Shown here piece by piece: positions 46,713-54,110 of a stretch of 64,000 nucleotides of DNA; within the stretch, counting starts at the first letter, position 1, and each line of letters starts with the position of its first letter. Source of the stretch: Terriglobales bacterium. Its GTDB lineage: Bacteria > Acidobacteriota > Terriglobia > Terriglobales > Acidobacteriaceae. The notes beneath the pieces were generated by a model. The model searched no databases. It saw only the letters and a list, made by a program, of their open reading frames with translations, and was not told the origin of the DNA. The stretch covers positions 1 to 64,000 of the forward strand of contig DASRER010000043.1 in NCBI GenBank assembly GCA_035651995.1, in the 5' to 3' direction. Made by a program: the position numbers and the translations under genes.

Positions 46713-48497
46713 ATGAAGAAGTCCGCTTCGTTCGCCGCACTGGTGTTGTGTCTGTTTTGTCTGCCTTCGCAGTTTTCCGCGCGCGGTGCAGCCGCGCGCG
46801 TCGCGGCGGCCGTGGATTCGTCTGGCCCCGCTCCCGTCCTGCTCAACGTGATGGAGCAGGAGCTGAAGCGGGCGATGGGCGCGCTGTCGAAGGCCGACCC
46901 GGCGCCCTACTACCTGAGCTACGCCGCCACCGACAAGAACAACATCACCATCGTGGGCTCGCATGGCGCGCTGATGAGCACCACCGTGCGCCACACCCGC
47001 ATGGTTGACGTTTCGGTGCGCGTGGCCGGGCCGGAGCTGGACAACACGCACGGCGAGAGCCGCGGCTCGGGCATTGCCAACGCGCTGCTGCCGCTGAACG
47101 ACGATCCTGACGCCATCGCCCGCGTCCTCTGGCAGACCACCGACAAGGAATACAAGACCGCGGCCCGCGCTTACCTCCAGGTGAAGACCAACACCGCCGT
47201 GCGCGCGCAGGAAGAGGACACCTCGGCCGATTTCTCCAGGGAGCAGCCCGAGTCGCGCGTGGCCGCGGTCAGGCCGCCGCCGCGCATTGACGTGGGCGCC
47301 TGGGAGCAGAAGCTGCGCAAGTTCTCGGCGGTCTTCCGCGCGCATCCTGACGTGTACGGCTCGTCGGTCACGCTGGTGGTGGACGACACGGCGCGCTACT
47401 TCGTTTCCAGCGAAGGCAGCCGCATCGTGAGCCATCGTCCCAGCGCGCGGCTCATCGCGGTCGCCGAAACCCGCGCCAATGACGGCATGGAGCTGCTGCG
47501 CTCGGAGAACTTCGACGACGCCACCCTCGACCGCCTGCCCTCCGACGCCGAAGTGATGGCGCGCATCGAGAAGATGGCTGGCGACCTGGAGAAGCTGCGC
47601 GTGGCGCCGGTCGTGGAGCCCTACAACGGCCCGGCGCTGCTCTCGGGACGCGCCGCCGCCGTGTTCTTCCACGAAGTGCTCGGGCATCGCGTGGAGGGGC
47701 ACCGCCAGCGCGGCATCCAGGAAGGCCAGACGTTCACGAAAAAACTTAACCAGCAGGTCCTGCCCGCATTTCTCAGCGTGGTTGACGATCCCACCGTGCA
47801 GCAGCTCAATGGCGTGGACCTGAGCGGCAGCTACGACTACGACGAAGAGGGCGTGCGCGCGCGCAAGGTCGAAGTGGTGCGCGACGGAGTGCTGAAGGAC
47901 TTCCTGCTCTCGCGGCTGCCGATCCACGGCTTTGAAAACTCCAACGGCCACGGCCGCGGCGAAGCGGGCATGATGCCGGTGGGACGGCAGGGCAATCTGA
48001 TCGTCAGCTCCACGCAAACGCTCTCCGATTCGCAACTGCGCGCCCGCTTCATCGAAGAGTTGAAGAAGCAGAACAAGCCCTACGGCCTCTACTTTGAGGA
48101 CATCGCCGGCGGATTTACGCTGACCACGCGCCAGTTGCCGCAGGCCTTCCAGATCCTGCCGCTGATGGTGTGGCGCGTTTACGCCGACGGACGCCCTGAC
48201 GAGCTGGTGCGCGGCGTGGACATTGTGGGCACGCCGCTGGCGGCGCTCACGCGCATCATCGCCGCCGGCGACAAGCAGCAGGTGTTTAATGGCGTGTGCG
48301 GCGCCGAATCCGGCGCCGTGCCGGTTGCGGCGGTGGCGCCGGCGCTGCTGTTCTCGGAAATCGAAGTGCAGAAGCGCCGCCAGACGCAGGACCGCCCGCC
48401 CATCCTGCCGGCGCCCGGCGCGCCGGTAAAGAAGGCCGGCGCAAGAGACGCCGCGCCCACAGCGCCGTCGGCGCCGGGGAAGGGAGGCCGGCCGTGA
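46713..48497 (+). CDS. Exported TldD/PmbA-family metalloprotease (catalytic subunit)
   Basis: This 594-residue protein starts with a signal peptide (residues 1 to about 26). It has the TldD zinc motif HEVLGH at 320-325 followed by RVEGH, and the third-ligand cysteine in NGVCGAESG. TldD acts with TldE/PmbA on unfolded peptides in the cytoplasm, for example in microcin maturation; this one is predicted to be exported. The C-terminal 50 residues are Pro/Ala/Lys-rich. Its stop overlaps the start of a partner gene, matching the TldD-TldE pairing. Confidence 0.88.
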   Translation: MKKSASFAALVLCLFCLPSQFSARGAAARVAAAVDSSGPAPVLLNVMEQELKRAMGALSKADPAPYYLSYAATDKNNITIVGSHGALMSTTVRHTRMVDVSVRVAGPELDNTHGESRGSGIANALLPLNDDPDAIARVLWQTTDKEYKTAARAYLQVKTNTAVRAQEEDTSADFSREQPESRVAAVRPPPRIDVGAWEQKLRKFSAVFRAHPDVYGSSVTLVVDDTARYFVSSEGSRIVSHRPSARLIAVAETRANDGMELLRSENFDDATLDRLPSDAEVMARIEKMAGDLEKLRVAPVVEPYNGPALLSGRAAAVFFHEVLGHRVEGHRQRGIQEGQTFTKKLNQQVLPAFLSVVDDPTVQQLNGVDLSGSYDYDEEGVRARKVEVVRDGVLKDFLLSRLPIHGFENSNGHGRGEAGMMPVGRQGNLIVSSTQTLSDSQLRARFIEELKKQNKPYGLYFEDIAGGFTLTTRQLPQAFQILPLMVWRVYADGRPDELVRGVDIVGTPLAALTRIIAAGDKQQVFNGVCGAESGAVPVAAVAPALLFSEIEVQKRRQTQDRPPILPAPGAPVKKAGARDAAPTAPSAPGKGGRP

Positions 48498-50251
48498 CGC
48501 GCGCCTGCCAAGCCGCCATCCGCGGCGCGTTGCTGATCTGCCTGCTGTCGCCGGCCGCGCCGCTACTCGCTCAAAAAGCAACAGCAAAATCGGCCGACCA
48601 AAAACCGCCTGCCGCCGCGCCGGCCCCCGTGCCCGCCGCCGATCCGGTGCTCGAAGCCATGCAGGCGGAACTGGCGCGCTCCAGGGACCAGCTGCAGCTG
48701 GAGCAGATGCAGCGGCCGTACTACATCGAGTACGTCGTCACCGATCTGGACCTCTACACGGCCGAGGCCGCCTTCGGGGCGGTGCGCGTGGAGCAGCGCC
48801 AGCGCGCGCGCCTGCTGCGCGCGGTGGTCCGCATTGGCGACTACAAACAGGACAGCTACTTCGGCGCCGGCCAGGGCTCGATTGACCTCATGCCAATTGA
48901 CGGCGACGTCCAGGCGCTGCGCCACCAGCTCTGGCTCGCCACCGACAAGGCGTACAAGATGGCCATCGAAGCCTTCACGCGCAAGCAGGCGGCGCTGAAG
49001 CAGTTTGAGAGCGCCACCACGCCGTCTGACGATTTCTCGCACGAGGAGCCGGCCTTCTACGAGGCGCCGGTGCAGAAGCTTGACTTCGACGCGGCGAAGT
49101 GGCGCGGGCTGCTCGAGTCGGCCACCGCGCTCTATCGCAGCGATCCTGACGTGCAGCTGCTTGTCGCCCACGCCATGTTCCGCGAGCAGACGCGCTACCT
49201 GGTGAACAGCGAAGGTACCGTGCTGCGGCGCTCCGAGCCGCTTTACGCCGTCAATGTGCAGGGCGAGACGCAGGCTCCTGACGGCATGCGCCTGGAACGC
49301 AGCCGCTCGTTCGTGGTGGGCGCGGCGGCTGAGCTGCCTTCGCCCGAGCAATATCGCGCGGCCGCCGAGCAGGTGGTCGCGCAGCTCGCCGAGCTGCGCA
49401 AGGCCCCGCTGGTTGACGACGAGTATCACGGGCCGGTGCTGTTCTCCAGCGACGCCGCCGGCAACGTCTTTGCGCGGCTCATCGCGCCCTCGGTCGCCGG
49501 ACGCAAGCCCGGTCCCGGGACGACCTCGCGGACGCTCGGCGAATACGCCTCCAGCTACAAGTCGCGCGTGCTGCCCGACTTCATTTCGCTGGTGGATGAC
49601 CCCACGGTTTCCGTTTTCGGTGGCCGCACCCTGCTGGGCAGCTATCAATACGACGACGAGGGGGTGAAAGCGCGCGCGGTCAACGTGGTCCAGAAGGGCG
49701 AGCTGGTCAGCTACCTGCTCGGCCGCCAGCCCATCCGCGATTTTCCCAGCTCCAATGGACACGGCCGCGGCCCGGGCATGATGGCGCCCATGCCGCACGT
49801 GGGGAACCTGTTCGTGAACGTTTCCACCCCGCAGACGTTCGCCGCCATGCGGCAAAAACTGATTGATATTTGCCGTGATCGTGGATTGCCTTATGGCTAT
49901 TACGTGAAAGCGCTGGGCGGCGCCGGGCTGGGCCTGGCGCCCGGAATTCTCTACCGCGTGTGGGTGAACGACGGACGCGAGGAGCTGGTGCGCGGCGCCG
50001 AGTTCAGCCAGCTCGACGCCCGCGCGCTGCGCAACGACCTGATCGCCGCCGGCGACGATCCGAAAGTGGACAACCACGCCGAAGTGGTGAACTACTCAGT
50101 GATCGCGCCGTCCATCCTCATGGGCGAGCTGGTCATCAAGCCCAGCGCTCAGGCCAAAGACAAGCTGCCGCAGTATCCCGCCCCGGGAACCAAGGTCGCG
50201 CTCCAGGCGCCCGGGACGACATCGCCGGGCGGCGCGGCGCAGCACCCGTAA
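48494..50251 (+). CDS. Exported TldE/PmbA-like partner without zinc motif
   Basis: This 585-residue paralogue of the upstream protein aligns over most of its length (RVLPDFISLVDDPTV, GSYQYDDEGVKAR, FPSSNGHGRG). At the zinc site it has VLFSSDAAGNVFARL instead of HEVLGH, and it lacks the ligand cysteine. It begins with a GTG at 48494 overlapping the previous stop, then a signal peptide (LLICLLSPAAPLLAQ). The arrangement mirrors the TldD (active) and TldE (inactive) heterodimer. The substrate is unknown. Confidence 0.85.
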   Translation: MTRACQAAIRGALLICLLSPAAPLLAQKATAKSADQKPPAAAPAPVPAADPVLEAMQAELARSRDQLQLEQMQRPYYIEYVVTDLDLYTAEAAFGAVRVEQRQRARLLRAVVRIGDYKQDSYFGAGQGSIDLMPIDGDVQALRHQLWLATDKAYKMAIEAFTRKQAALKQFESATTPSDDFSHEEPAFYEAPVQKLDFDAAKWRGLLESATALYRSDPDVQLLVAHAMFREQTRYLVNSEGTVLRRSEPLYAVNVQGETQAPDGMRLERSRSFVVGAAAELPSPEQYRAAAEQVVAQLAELRKAPLVDDEYHGPVLFSSDAAGNVFARLIAPSVAGRKPGPGTTSRTLGEYASSYKSRVLPDFISLVDDPTVSVFGGRTLLGSYQYDDEGVKARAVNVVQKGELVSYLLGRQPIRDFPSSNGHGRGPGMMAPMPHVGNLFVNVSTPQTFAAMRQKLIDICRDRGLPYGYYVKALGGAGLGLAPGILYRVWVNDGREELVRGAEFSQLDARALRNDLIAAGDDPKVDNHAEVVNYSVIAPSILMGELVIKPSAQAKDKLPQYPAPGTKVALQAPGTTSPGGAAQHP

Positions 50252-50321: not shown

Positions 50322-51296
50322 CTAGCCTTCGGGCCTCGCGCCGGCCAGCAGAAATTTACCGTCCTCCGACTTCGCGCGGAGCTCCACTCTGAACCCGCCA
50401 TCTTCAATGAGCCGAAAAAACGCCGTTTCGTCGTATTTCACTGAGCCCGACATGCGCAGGAGCTCGCCCTTTTTCAGCCCCAGCTCCCGCCCGGCCACGT
50501 TCAGGCGCAAGTCCCGCGCGGGCACGAAGTACTTCACCACCTCGTGCAAGCCTTCGCCGGCCCGCGCGCTGCTCAGCTCGAACACCAGCTTGCCGTCGCG
50601 TCCCTCTTCCAGCCCGAGCCCGGCGAGCGGCGAAAAGGCAAAGCGACGGTTCACGGGATGGTCGTAGCCGCGCAGGGTTTCTTCACCCGCGAAAACCTCG
50701 CCATCGAAGATCGTTCTATCGCCGGGACGCATTACCTTCTGCAACCGCGCCGGAAAGCCGGTCGGATCGAAGGCGCCCAGCGTGTTGCCCAGCACCGCAA
50801 AGATTGCGCCGCCATTGCCGGCGGCGATTCGGGCAAGGGAAGCGAGCTGTGCGGCGCTGGTGACGTCGAACTTCACCCCTTCGGCGCCGCATCCGGCAGC
50901 GAGCGCGCGGCGGCACGCCATCTCCAGCAGCGACTCGCTGAAGTCGGCGGCGACGTAACGCAAGCGGCGCCCTTTGTGCGCGAATCCGCGGAGCAGGGCT
51001 TCATCTTTGCTGCCGTCGCCGCAGCCCACGCCGCAGAGAACGCGGGCATCCGGCCACAAGTCCGCGAGCCGCGCGGCGTTGGCCGTGAGCACCTGCAATG
51101 CGCGGTCCGCGTTGCGGTAAGCCGGCGCCGAACCCAGGTCCACCCAGGCCTGCACCGAGAGCGGCAGCCAGTAGAAGAACTTCTCGTCGAGATACCGCTG
51201 CTCGATGGCGGCGGCAAAGTCGCGCGCTATCTCGGCCTCGGTGAGCATCACGCGGACCGGAAAGTCCTGATCGGCAGATTGCCATGAAGACGTCAT
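50322..51296 (-). CDS. EgtD-like SAM-dependent methyltransferase
   Basis: This 324-residue methyltransferase of the histidine-specific (EgtD, Methyltransf_33) family has a SAM-binding loop VLCGVGCGDGSKDEALL at about 87-102 and the family segment FAVLGNTLGAFDP at about 166-178. The C-terminal half resembles the EgtD substrate domain, with YDHPVNRRFAFSPLAG. EgtD trimethylates the alpha-amine of free histidine. Here the gene is divergent from a peptide gene whose three motifs each contain Cys-His, so a peptide or amino-acid substrate linked to that system is plausible but unproven. The start is taken at ATG 51296; ATG 51248 is possible. Confidence 0.82.
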   Translation of the reverse strand: MTSSWQSADQDFPVRVMLTEAEIARDFAAAIEQRYLDEKFFYWLPLSVQAWVDLGSAPAYRNADRALQVLTANAARLADLWPDARVLCGVGCGDGSKDEALLRGFAHKGRRLRYVAADFSESLLEMACRRALAAGCGAEGVKFDVTSAAQLASLARIAAGNGGAIFAVLGNTLGAFDPTGFPARLQKVMRPGDRTIFDGEVFAGEETLRGYDHPVNRRFAFSPLAGLGLEEGRDGKLVFELSSARAGEGLHEVVKYFVPARDLRLNVAGRELGLKKGELLRMSGSVKYDETAFFRLIEDGGFRVELRAKSEDGKFLLAGARPEG

Positions 51297-51386: not shown

Positions 51387-51444
51387 CCAAGTCTTTAGGG
51401 ACTGGGTGCGCAGGGCAACTGCCACCTGCCCGAAAGGAGAAAGC

Positions 51445-51582
51445 ATGAAGGTTGTCGAAATCAGTGACGTGGCCCCGGCCTGCCACAACTTCAAACTGGT
51501 GGAGACGGCGGAGGTCGCTCCCACTTGTCACAGCCATTTCAAGCTCGTGGAGACTTCCGAAACAGCCCCCACGTGCCACTAA
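51445..51582 (+). CDS. RiPP-like precursor peptide with three AP(A/T)CH motifs
   Basis: This is a 45-codon gene with a strong ribosome binding site (AAAGGAGA, five-base spacing). After a short leader (MKVVEISD) the peptide has APACH at 10-14, APTCH at 25-29 and APTCH at 41-45, the last ending the protein. The first two motifs are each followed by FKLVET, so the unit is AP(A/T)CH-x1-2-FKLVET-x-E, repeating every 15-16 residues. All three cysteines are directly followed by histidine. It is upstream of a DUF692/MNIO oxidase and its partner, enzymes known to modify cysteine-bearing peptides. I infer it is their substrate. I do not recognise this precursor from a described family. Confidence 0.85.
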   Translation: MKVVEISDVAPACHNFKLVETAEVAPTCHSHFKLVETSETAPTCH

Positions 51583-51604
51583 CTTCCTGCTGACCTTGCA
51601 CCCA

Positions 51605-51651
51605 GACCTCCGCGGCGGCCACCATGGAGTGTCCCGCGGAGGTCAGTTTTT
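51605..51651 (+). terminator. Attenuator-like terminator between peptide and MNIO genes
   Basis: An 11-bp perfect stem (GACCTCCGCGG / CCGCGGAGGTC, 51605-51615 and 51634-51644) with an 18-base loop is followed by AGTTTTTC. It lies 22 bases after the peptide stop. Partial read-through would give more peptide than enzyme transcript, which is usual for such clusters. Confidence 0.8.
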
Positions 51652-51693
51652 CTGTGCAGGGGCGGCTGCACTGATGTTTGCGGCGGTTGGTCC

Positions 51694-52521
51694 ATGACGA
51701 ATGACCCGCGCGCGCTGCCGGAAGGACGCCTGGCGGTCGGCGCTTTCTACAATCCGCATCTCGCTTCGGCATTGCTCGAGGCGCGTGACGAGATTGACCA
51801 CCTCGCCATGGCCGATCCGCCCGCCGCCAACGACGCCCACTTCGAAACTGTTCGCGAGCGTTATCCGTTATTGCTGCACGACTACCTGGGCCAGCTCTCC
51901 GATCCGCTCAGTGAGCACGCGCTGGCGCGCGCCCGCGACTTGCAGCAGCGCTACCAGGGCCCGTGGGTGGCCGAGCACTTCCAGTGCCTGCACACGCAGG
52001 ACCACCGGCGCACGCTCGACTACGTCTTTCCGCCGCTCTACACGGAAGAGTTTTTGTCGCGCTTCGTGGCCAACGCCCGCATTCTGCGCGACGCGGTGCA
52101 GGCCGAGCTCGTGATGGAGAACATTCCCGGGTTCTTTTCACTGCAGCACGCGCAGATGAGCGAGCCCGAATTCCTGCGCCGCTTCTTCGACCAGACCGGC
52201 TGCGGCCTGCTGCTCGACCTGCCTCACGTGTGGCTGGCCGCGCACTACTCCGGTCGCGCCGCCCGCGAGTACCTGGCGCAATTTCCGCTGGAGCGCGTGG
52301 TGGAGATTCACGTGGCCGGCGTGGAGCACGACCACGACCTCGACGGGCCGTGGATTGCGCCGGCGGCGCCGTCAGAAGAGATCCTGGCGCTGGCCGTCTG
52401 GCTGGCTGAGCGCGCGCCCAAGCTGCGCGCCGTGACCTTCGACGCGTTCGCGCCCTCGCTCACCGCCGGTGTCCTGCTCGAATCGGTGCGCGCCACGCGG
52501 AGGGCGTTTGGCATCGCCTGA
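51694..52521 (+). CDS. DUF692/MNIO-family multinuclear iron oxidase
   Basis: This 275-residue TIM-barrel-type enzyme belongs to the DUF692 family (MbnB/TglH relatives), which use two or three irons to oxidise cysteine residues of peptides. Family pattern residues are visible: LLLH (H62), VAEHFQ (H95), VMENIPGF (E142), GCGLLLDLPHVW (D175, H178), VVEIHVAG (H206) and FDAF (D250). The part after H206 is histidine- and aspartate-rich (GVEHDHDLDGPW). The DLPHVW stretch differs from the DVNN pattern of many relatives. It is downstream of the Cys-His peptide gene and overlaps the next gene by 14 bases. Confidence 0.87.
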   Translation: MTNDPRALPEGRLAVGAFYNPHLASALLEARDEIDHLAMADPPAANDAHFETVRERYPLLLHDYLGQLSDPLSEHALARARDLQQRYQGPWVAEHFQCLHTQDHRRTLDYVFPPLYTEEFLSRFVANARILRDAVQAELVMENIPGFFSLQHAQMSEPEFLRRFFDQTGCGLLLDLPHVWLAAHYSGRAAREYLAQFPLERVVEIHVAGVEHDHDLDGPWIAPAAPSEEILALAVWLAERAPKLRAVTFDAFAPSLTAGVLLESVRATRRAFGIA

Positions 52522-53290
52522 AAAGCCTTCGCCGTCCGGCGACCGCGACGTGCAGGACGAGATCATCCGCTACCTCGCCGACGGTGAATTTCGCGCCCAG
52601 GGCAGCGCCAACCTGCCGCTCACTCCTGCCGACGCACAAAAAGCCGAGCGCTTCGCCCGCTTCCTGATCCGGCGCTACTACCGCGATCGCCTCGCGCGCG
52701 GCTTTCGCACGTCGCGCCTCCTGGCCGAGCACTACGGGCGCCTGCCCGAAGAAACAGTGGACCAGCCCGGCTTTGGCCCGCTCCTGGAAACCGGCGTCCT
52801 CGGCTCGTTCCTCACCTCGCGCATCGTGGCCCAGCTCGCCAAGCAACACCTGATGGCGCACATCCCCGAACTCGGGCCGTGGTGGTGGGACATGCTCCGG
52901 TACGACATTGCGTATTTCATGCAGCTCGCCACCTCCGATCCCGGCGCGCCGTCCCAGTTGCCGCGCCGCGGTACAAGCGCCATGACCGCGGAGCTGGACT
53001 GGTACCTGCCGCAAGTAGTTGGCAGTCTGCGTGCGCGCCAGGAACCGACACCGGAAATGGAACGAAAGTGGAGCCTGCTGTTCTCGCGCACGCACGGCGG
53101 CCGCGTGTACGTGATGGAAATCGATAGCGACGCCCTTTCGCTGTTCGAAGCGGTAGACGGGAAGCGCGCGCGCCAGGAGATCATCCACGCCTCCGGGGTG
53201 CGGCCTTCGATCGCCGAGCCCATGCTGGCGGACCTGGAGCGCATCGGCGCGGTGATCTTGCCGCAACAGGCAGTTTCGCCGGCCACATAG
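52508..53290 (+). CDS. MNIO partner protein with PqqD-like C-terminal domain
   Basis: MNIO enzymes usually act with a partner (MbnC/TglI type) that helps bind the leader peptide. This 260-residue protein follows the MNIO gene with a 14-base overlap. Its N-terminal part is helical (FARFLIRRYYRDRLARGFRT, WWWDMLRYDIAYFMQL). The last 70 residues resemble a PqqD-like winged-helix peptide-binding domain, with LLFSRTHGGRVYVMEIDSDA, LFEAVDGKRARQEI and MLADLERIGAVILP. I chose the TTG at 52508 (GGAGG four bases before it); a GTG at 52550 is possible. Family assignment is by context and pattern only. Confidence 0.75.
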   Translation: MASPEKPSPSGDRDVQDEIIRYLADGEFRAQGSANLPLTPADAQKAERFARFLIRRYYRDRLARGFRTSRLLAEHYGRLPEETVDQPGFGPLLETGVLGSFLTSRIVAQLAKQHLMAHIPELGPWWWDMLRYDIAYFMQLATSDPGAPSQLPRRGTSAMTAELDWYLPQVVGSLRARQEPTPEMERKWSLLFSRTHGGRVYVMEIDSDALSLFEAVDGKRARQEIIHASGVRPSIAEPMLADLERIGAVILPQQAVSPAT

Positions 53291-53408: not shown

Positions 53409-54110
53409 CTACCGAACGCTCGCCATCCGCTCCTGGCGCGCAGCGTCGATGCCGTCCAGCGCGGTCCACAATGCCCGCGCCGCAGCTTCCGCGGCGTCGA
53501 GGGCGGCTGCTTTCGCTGCGGGCGAATCGACCGCCGCCAACACCTGGTCGCGCCACACGCGTGAATGGTGAGCGTCAGCGGTGGTGTGCAGCGTGAAGTA
53601 TCGGCAGGTATGCTCGTCGGCGCCATAGCGCTCGCGCAATCCGCGCGCTTTCTCGGCCGCCACTCGCGGCACCTGCGACTCGTAGGCGTAGAAGCTGGCC
53701 AGCGCTTCCACGGGCGAGGCCTCGCGCGCCACGCGCCGGAAGTGCCATATCAGATCAGCCAGCTCCGGGAGCGGTTCGCGGTCCTTCACCTGGCCCGCAC
53801 CAGCGCCCATGCCCGAAGCGAACTGCAGCCACAGTTCATGATGCGGACGCCCGTCGGGAGAGTTCACACCCAATTCGTCGTCGCGGTTGGCACTCACCGC
53901 GGCGCATAGCTCGCCTTCCGGCAGCCGCGCAGCAAATTCGCCCAGGTACTCCGGGAAAGCCGCAACGTGGTGGTAGTAATCGGCGGCGTACTCGCGCAGG
54001 TCTGCGCGGGTCAGCGAGCCCTCCGACCATGCCTTATAGAAGGGATGGCATAGCAGGTCGTACTTCGCAATGCGGCGATCAAGTTCGGCAACGAAAGCAG
54101 CGTCGTTCAT
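53409..54110 (-). CDS. CADD/PqqC-like heme-oxygenase-fold diiron protein
   Basis: This 233-residue helical protein has a diiron ligand pattern: DDE at 77-79, HHELW around 90-94, YES with E144, and LHTTADAHH with H175, D179 and H181/182. This spacing matches the CADD protein of Chlamydia, which makes p-aminobenzoate from its own tyrosine. Y25, Y143 and K154 fall near the positions of the residues important in CADD. It could be a p-aminobenzoate synthase. Alternatively, as a diiron oxidase convergent to the MNIO cluster, it could act in that pathway; the opposite strand and its own terminator make that less certain. Confidence 0.82.
   Translation of the reverse strand: MNDAAFVAELDRRIAKYDLLCHPFYKAWSEGSLTRADLREYAADYYHHVAAFPEYLGEFAARLPEGELCAAVSANRDDELGVNSPDGRPHHELWLQFASGMGAGAGQVKDREPLPELADLIWHFRRVAREASPVEALASFYAYESQVPRVAAEKARGLRERYGADEHTCRYFTLHTTADAHHSRVWRDQVLAAVDSPAAKAAALDAAEAAARALWTALDGIDAARQERMASVR

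Follow-up and report, generated by a model that had tools for sequence, protein, structure and literature searches.

Described systems closest to the locus

Peptides oxidised at a cysteine by an MNIO (DUF692) enzyme working with a partner protein provide the closest described counterparts of the system considered here, in which a short Cys-His repeat peptide, an MNIO and an overlapping partner gene stand together at positions 51,445 to 53,290 of the window, the 64,000-nucleotide stretch of the Terriglobales bacterium contig DASRER010000043.1 (assembly GCA_035651995.1) that was analysed. In the pearlin route to 3-thiaglutamate the TglHI pair acts on a Cys at the end of the scaffold TglA and the product is then cut off (PMC9016710), and the present locus shares with it the Cys at the scaffold end, an MNIO for which TglH is closest among solved structures, and a partner whose predicted fold is closest to chain A of TglHI. 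In contrast to pearlins the Cys, or selenocysteine (Sec, U), is encoded here and not added by a peptide aminoacyl-tRNA ligase (PEARL) enzyme, a His follows it, several modules can be present, and there is an EgtD-fold methyltransferase as well as a Sec type of the peptide. The aminopyruvatide enzyme ApyH and its partner ApyI have weak sequence similarity to the enzyme and partner of the window, but both scores are far below the NCBIfam cut-offs (103.7 bits against 400 for ApyH, 24 against 200 for ApyI), the precursor there has a C-terminal Asp where the present ones end in CH or UH or in these and one further residue, and no cytochrome P450 or B12-radical S-adenosylmethionine (SAM) gene is among the recurring neighbours identified here. 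With bufferins and oxazolins (BufB with a DUF2063 partner) the likeness is an MNIO acting on Cys motifs, repeated ones in the oxazolins, but the BufB score of the window enzyme is 109.5 bits against a cut-off of 310, its partner gives no match to DUF2063 (the PME type 1 partner), there is no signal-peptide-like start, and the motif and the neighbours are other ones.

In ergothioneine synthesis a non-haem iron enzyme links the sulfur of Cys to His, and selenoneine is made by SenA, SenB and SenC. With these pathways and with EgtU uptake the present clusters have in common an EgtD-fold methyltransferase, an iron enzyme, a Cys sulfur or selenium placed next to His and the quaternary-amine family of ATP-binding cassette (ABC) transporters; however, a scaffold peptide replaces free histidine, EgtD pocket residues are not kept, EgtB is over cut-off in 1 of 45 family genomes, and TIGR04348, which we take to be SenB, is over cut-off in none of 13 (the window genome and 12 with Sec types). 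Canonical ergothioneine synthesis is thus mostly absent from the genomes of the family. Selenobacteriocins offer a Sec-containing precursor with a selenocysteine insertion sequence (SECIS) element beside an oxidising enzyme, although that enzyme, SbtM, is a radical SAM protein and not an MNIO (PMC11002830), and the motif is SGUG there (PMC13188914) and PTUH here.

Among the literature found, this Sbt system is the only ribosomally synthesised and post-translationally modified peptide (RiPP) system with Sec in print (PMC11002830, PMC13188914). Neither an MNIO with a natural Sec substrate nor an MNIO with an EgtD-like neighbour or a link to ergothioneine was found in the open-licence literature, the main text of PMC12452194 has no match for Gemmatimonad-, methyltransf- or TCH, and the TGA-containing peptide family was not found among the 119 prokaryotic selenoprotein families in Table 1 of the 2026 inventory (PMC13188914). 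The proposal of the initial annotation, a RiPP-type trio with Cys-His as its conserved point, is supported, and as far as the literature searched reaches the trio is undescribed.

A family of short Cys-His peptides beside an MNIO

The peptide gene of the window (51445..51582, plus strand) encodes 45 residues reading MKVVEISDVAPACHNFKLVETAEVAPTCHSHFKLVETSETAPTCH, is preceded by the ribosome binding site AAAGGAG (51433..51439, plus strand, 5 bases upstream of the ATG) and terminates Cys-His-stop. Three modules follow one another on the plus strand, MKVVEISDVAPACH (51445..51486), KLVETAEVAPTCH (51493..51531) and KLVETSETAPTCH (51541..51579, the C-terminal end of the peptide), joined by the linkers NF and SHF, and their APACH, APTCH and APTCH motifs end at residues 14, 29 and 45, a spacing of 15 and 16. 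The initial annotation had named three AP(A/T)CH motifs at 15-16 residue spacing in a 45-codon gene with a strong ribosome binding site, followed by the MNIO and the overlapping partner, and all of this reads directly from the sequence. Its FKLVET after two of the motifs is also present, with NFKLVET after the first Cys-His motif and SHFKLVET after the second, but it is the head of the next module and not a tail.

Peptide, MNIO and partner are a family of their own. A scan of an 84,980-species collection with five MNIO proteins as queries gave 45 loci; an MNIO is retrieved in this way only if it has one of two exact peptide patterns, and so distant members are missed. Together with the window, L032, L085 and L086 these make 49 distinct loci, from which L031, L033, L034, L084 and L087 are left out as repeats of other loci. 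Loss of the peptide where the enzymes are kept, which the initial annotation had held would speak against it, is not what is seen: the peptide lies upstream of the MNIO in 47 of the 49, across Acidobacteriota, Gemmatimonadota, Rokubacteria, Planctomycetota and Nitrospirota. It is present in 43 of the 45 scan loci when the upstream DNA is read with TGA as a sense codon, and the remaining four cases are the window, L032 and two Rokubacteria loci that were found later; 33 of the 47 peptides are of the Cys type and 14 of the Sec type. As for the two loci where no peptide is seen, L065 starts inside a reductase gene lying between peptide and MNIO, and L063 carries only the end of such a gene, the front of which stands with a peptide and a methyltransferase on another contig of the same genome (L092).

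Among 99 relatives of the window genome close MNIO orthologues (53-76% identity) occur in four, all other matches being at or below 33%. The same three-module peptide lies upstream of the MNIO in three of the four, and in the fourth (L034) it becomes visible only past a TGA, as MEDDKKMIDLLPEEALVERESLVPT-TGA-CAC-TAA. A search through 395 further genomes from the same phylum as the window yielded three loci, all sharing DNA with L061, L062 and L072, and so the cluster is rare in that phylum.

For counting motifs 32 Cys-type peptides were used, those of the window and of 31 scan loci, L050 being cut by a contig end. The repeat unit is roughly V-E-x-x-E-x-x-P-T-C-H, with two modules in 22 peptides, three in nine and four in one, and every one of the 75 P[T/S/A]CH motifs keeps both C and H, with no Cys anywhere outside these motifs. 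L032, which is not among the 32, supplies with L003 (G053:C36) a natural Ser for Cys, the first module of its 46-residue peptide being APTSH with the two other modules intact. Peptide lengths in the family run from 18 to 65 residues and no signal-peptide-like start is seen by inspection.

Cysteine and predicted selenocysteine at the same position

In 14 loci from Acidobacteriota, Rokubacteria and Planctomycetota an in-frame TGA occupies the Cys codon (12 of the 43 scan peptides and both later Rokubacteria loci), and in all 14 it is followed by CAC and then by a stop, directly or after one Asn. Each of these peptides has a single pair equivalent to Cys-His, and in the 12 scan loci they are 18-28 residues long. 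Apparently, then, Cys and Sec exchange on an MNIO substrate, Sec being the predicted reading of the TGA. The two later Rokubacteria genomes were found by the MNIO alone and show the same TGA-CAC, and so the pattern predicted new data.

Published rules for the bacterial SECIS ask for a loop of 3-9 with G in the first two, a stem of 4-16, a spacing of 16-37 and a minimum free energy at or below -7.5 (PMC13188914). By these rules with at least four unbroken pairs a hairpin lies behind the TGA in 12 of 12 Sec-type scan loci, against 991 of 2518 other TGAs of the same loci (39%). With stems of at least six pairs the figures become 10 of 12 against 346 of 2518, and with a looser spacing of 13-30 and the same stem 11 of 12 against 253 of 2522; the hairpin of L064 and L076, CCTC[GGTC]GAGG, has four unbroken pairs only. 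Hairpin sequences are of the CCGGCT-loop-GGCCGG kind in Acidobacteriota and different in Rokubacteria and Planctomycetota. The 48-base stretches behind the Sec-type TGA fold at -10.1 or lower, and the downstream folding-energy z-scores average -1.19 for the Sec types (n=12, several single values lying near zero) versus -0.03 for the Cys types (n=32; Mann-Whitney p 0.0016, the rows being related).

Machinery for Sec is widespread in the genomes of the family, with tRNA-Sec over cut-off in 39 of 45 and SelB in 35 of 45, the window genome included. One or other is present in all 12 Sec-type scan genomes and tRNA-Sec in both later ones, and neither is found with L074 and L075, which are Cys-type Nitrospirota. 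The Sec trait was considered as a marker of the pathway and set aside: SelB or tRNA-Sec is present in 43 of 45 family genomes but also in most relatives, so taxonomy confounds the comparison, which serves as a consistency check only.

An MNIO tree of 42 rows (without L044, L046 and L079, which have no usable MNIO frame, and L077, which is too short) has well supported branches that force two changes of the Sec label, and in it the Cys-type Nitrospirota adjoin the Planctomycetota Sec type with support 94/79.

The enzyme and its partner

The MNIO gene of the window (51694..52521, plus strand) encodes 275 residues that score 116 bits against Pfam MbnB_TglH_ChrH, where the cut-off is 25, and so by family score it is a member of the MNIO (DUF692) enzymes, and a multi-iron centre and oxidation of a peptide would be predicted for it. 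Its profile matches TglH and MbnB. All NCBIfam MNIO equivalogs that it matches are below their cut-offs, BufB being the best. Across the 42 rows 61 columns are invariant, and invariant His, Asp and Glu residues include H62, H95, E142, D175, H178 and H206. Four columns (L99, L108, P177 and P254, with P177 next to invariant H178) separate Sec from Cys types, and these were dismissed because 30 other groupings of the six lineages give 0-22 such columns, 12 groupings scoring higher and one equal.

The partner gene (52508..53290, plus strand) overlaps the MNIO stop; its best start is the TTG at 52508 with GGAGGG upstream, and a GTG at 52469 is possible. Sequence searches place it poorly, with no Pfam family match for the window partner or for that of L061, and with ApyI as the only NCBIfam match. 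A model of the window partner from an alignment of 23 rows (A2) has a mean predicted local distance difference test (pLDDT) score of 92.5, and below an E of 0.001 it matches in the PDB only chain A, which we take to be TglI, of two TglHI entries (8hci and 8hi7), with NGO1945 (3dee) third at 0.0047. The partner had been called PqqD-like in the initial annotation, for which Pfam and NCBIfam give no sequence support, but its predicted fold does match TglI, the C-terminal part of which is described as a RiPP recognition element (RRE) domain (PMC9016710). NGO1945 and TglI are the structures named for MNIO partners in PMC12452194, and the TglI/NGO1945-like predicted fold fits the PME-type 2 of that account. 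A partner match stands downstream of the MNIO in 42 of 46 loci, and in the four where it does not (L041, L051, L076 and L079) the contigs end inside or soon after the MNIO. In several Gemmatimonadota loci (L042:6684-7979, L058:6783-7985) a gene of about 400 codons, presumably LssY C-terminal-like as judged by eye, lies between MNIO and partner.

Neighbouring genes

Divergent from the peptide gene, at 50322..51296 on the minus strand, the window carries an EgtD-fold methyltransferase (Methyltransf_33-like) that the initial annotation had missed. Its account was incomplete in this respect, and the TGA-containing relatives and the transporter were beyond its view. Neighbours were surveyed by tblastn of seed proteins over 46 loci, window included, and a homologue of this gene lies near the peptide or the MNIO in 40, being missing in L050, L062, L063, L064, L065 and L076. 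Genome searches recover it on another contig for L063 (G138) and as a fragment for L065 (G139), and the match in the genome of L050 (G127) is the contig of L079, while at E 1e-20 none is found in the genome of L062 (G101). Methyltransferase orthologues (E<1e-70) coincide with the MNIO orthologues, occurring in the same four of the 99 relatives; the other 95 have none, and 37 of them give weak matches, the best at 4.5e-11.

The sequence similarity of METHYLTRANSFERASE to EgtD is low (TIGR03438 47.5 bits in the window and 57.2 in L061, versus a cut-off of 290.9). A model of the L061 protein from 14 rows (A3) nevertheless has the EgtD fold, with a pLDDT of 93.8 and with its top 15 PDB matches all EgtD at template modelling (TM) scores of 0.78-0.83. 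Residue numbers were placed on chain 4pim of EgtD. The tyrosines Y39, Y56 and Y206, presumably near the substrate amine and carboxylate, are kept in the alignment. At N166, M252, E282 and S284, which we take to be pocket residues, N166 is Ala or Gly in 11 of the 14 rows and Ile or Val in three, M252 becomes Lys, E282 becomes Asn or Ser, and S284 is kept. E282 and M252 are the pair changed in the tryptophan-bound EgtD variant 4pip, according to the title of that entry. The enzyme may accordingly be read from its residues as a putative amino-acid N-methyltransferase for a substrate with an altered side chain.

An ABC transporter of the quaternary-amine kind (ProV/ProW/OpuAC) recurs in the clusters, and 23 of the 46 loci encode a binding protein of the OpuAC/ProX/OpuC/EgtUC type. 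In L061 methyltransferase, ATPase, permease, binding protein, PTUH peptide, MNIO and partner all run in one direction. The L061 binding protein matches its family clearly, but the idea that it is specific for ergothioneine was rejected, since a gapless hand count puts Phe at the EgtU invariant G244 and Tyr at F293 (EgtU residues from PMC9732360), as in glycine-betaine ProX, and so the label used here is quaternary amine and not ergothioneine. The cluster binding proteins (L061:4883-5755 and others) have a conserved GGTFxCH, and an acetylcholine-sensor relative has GGTNVNF at that place. No binding protein is seen in the Acidobacteriales loci closest to the window, where ATPase-only matches are distant.

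In 19 Gemmatimonadota loci the peptide and MNIO genes are separated by one for an aldo/keto reductase. No metal-homeostasis gene is among the recurring neighbours identified, annotation covering part of the neighbours. Just before the methyltransferase the window has two adjoining TldD/PmbA-type metalloprotease-like genes (46713-50251), the second of which (48341-50248) matches Pfam PmbA_TldD_3rd, the first being similar by eye. These were discarded as a cluster protease, none having been noticed by eye among the large open reading frames of L031-L034, beyond which no further search was made. On the other side, adjoining the partner gene, a haem-oxygenase-like protein is encoded on the minus strand (53409-54110; close to the CADD family, 175 bits versus a cut-off of 200), and no homologue of it is found in the other 45 loci.

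Proposed pathway and alternative readings

The elements common to the lineages are the module, its Cys/Sec-His end, the MNIO and the partner. They are probably those of a RiPP-type scaffold pathway, in which Cys-His or Sec-His is oxidised on a disposable peptide and the product is released and tailored. The peptide would be the scaffold, of one to four modules ending Pro-Thr-Cys-His (with Ser and Ala variants) or Pro-Thr-Sec-His, and its conserved acidic V-E-x-x-E stretch would be what the partner probably recognises. Enzyme and partner together would oxidise the chalcogen residue adjoining His, a protease would cut out the modified residue or residues, and the released product may then be N-methylated by the EgtD-fold enzyme, the gene for which is observed in most lineages, and moved by the quaternary-amine-type transporter where this is present. 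Because Cys and Sec exchange exactly there, the sulfur or selenium atom would seem to be the reactive centre, and that the rest is kept in this exchange suggests that the chalcogen may be what the pathway is about. Repeats of two to four with Cys and one with Sec fit a scaffold yielding several identical units. Tailoring genes vary between a methyltransferase with a transporter, a reductase and an ATP-grasp gene; such variety would be expected of a small product that leaves the scaffold and is finished in a lineage-specific way.

Several observations weigh against this reading. A Sec analogue of TglA inhibits TglHI (PMC9016710), and so there are MNIOs that do not simply accept Sec. Under the loose rule chance alone often yields a SECIS-like hairpin, as the 39% background attests, and the rows compared are related. 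Relatives of the window genome often have the Sec trait in any case, with tRNA-Sec at 58 bits or more in 67 of 99, which makes Sec machinery weak evidence by itself. No methyltransferase is found at E 1e-20 in any of four Rokubacteria genomes (G102, G111, G226 and G236, the last two being those of L095 and L096), and so methylation is not part of the core; instead an ATP-grasp-like gene (Pfam 30.0, just under the cut-off of 32, with nothing in NCBIfam) lies directly upstream of the PTUHN peptide in L064, L076, L095 and L096. Because the pocket residues of EgtD are not conserved, plain histidine is probably not what the enzyme acts on. No transporter of this kind was found within about 6 kb of the window MNIO, and no recurring protease gene is seen in the cluster.

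Were the TGA an ordinary stop, the peptides of these lineages would end in ...PT with Cys-His lost. The background of loose-rule hairpins and the modest downstream z-scores would sit well with this, but we regard it as highly improbable, because in all 14 loci, which come from three phyla and have differing hairpins, CAC comes right after the TGA and another stop is reached within two codons, the 32 Cys-type peptides show no exception to P[T/S/A]CH, and Sec machinery is present in all 14 genomes. A metal-binding RiPP would carry a thiooxazole or an oxazolone/thioamide at Cys, the intact peptide with its His binding copper or another metal in the manner of bufferins or methanobactin. It is true that Cys peptides make up most of the described MNIO substrates and that the largest families have a link to copper (PMC12452194), and a Cys-type peptide can offer up to four Cys-His pairs; however, the peptides are very short and start unlike secreted ones, the Sec types have a single pair, with which a metal-binding peptide would keep its function less easily, and the identified neighbours are a methyltransferase and a transporter and not genes of metal homeostasis, so this alternative appears unlikely. 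The EgtD-like enzyme and the quaternary-amine transporter point to a small molecule cut from the scaffold rather than to such a peptide.

Doubtful too, if a little less remote, is a thio- or seleno-oxazole RiPP, in which the MNIO would act at PT(C/U)H as the radical SAM enzyme SbtM acts on its Cys/Sec precursor, the other genes tailoring or moving the fragment. Thio(seleno)oxazole RiPPs with Sec precursors exist (PMC11002830) and MNIOs make thiooxazoles (PMC13097082, PMC13419390), but by itself this leaves the invariant His after Cys/Sec and the EgtD-fold enzyme unexplained. Within the scaffold pathway the boldest version would be a ribosomal route to thio- or selenohistidine betaines: the MNIO would move sulfur or selenium onto the adjacent His or fuse the two, and protease release, N-methylation and EgtU/OpuC-like transport would follow. 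A step from Cys-His to thio- or selenohistidine would be chemically attractive by analogy with ergothioneine synthesis, where Cys sulfur is likewise joined to His, and this version as a whole is tentative and improbable as it stands.

Implications

If that version were true, an antioxidant like ergothioneine or selenoneine would be made without EgtB or SenA-SenB, and an MNIO would have a natural substrate with genetically encoded selenium, the latter not found anywhere in print. Known substrates of the MNIOs, a family of enzymes that is growing fast, are for the most part Cys peptides, and a natural family in which Cys and Sec stand in for each other where the reaction probably takes place would give a direct handle on MNIO mechanism. 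The loci also add a family of very short predicted selenoproteins. Overall the conserved clusters suggest a route, so far undescribed, to small molecules that contain sulfur or selenium and are built on a ribosomally made peptide, and point to an undescribed sulfur or selenium metabolite in soil and groundwater phyla.

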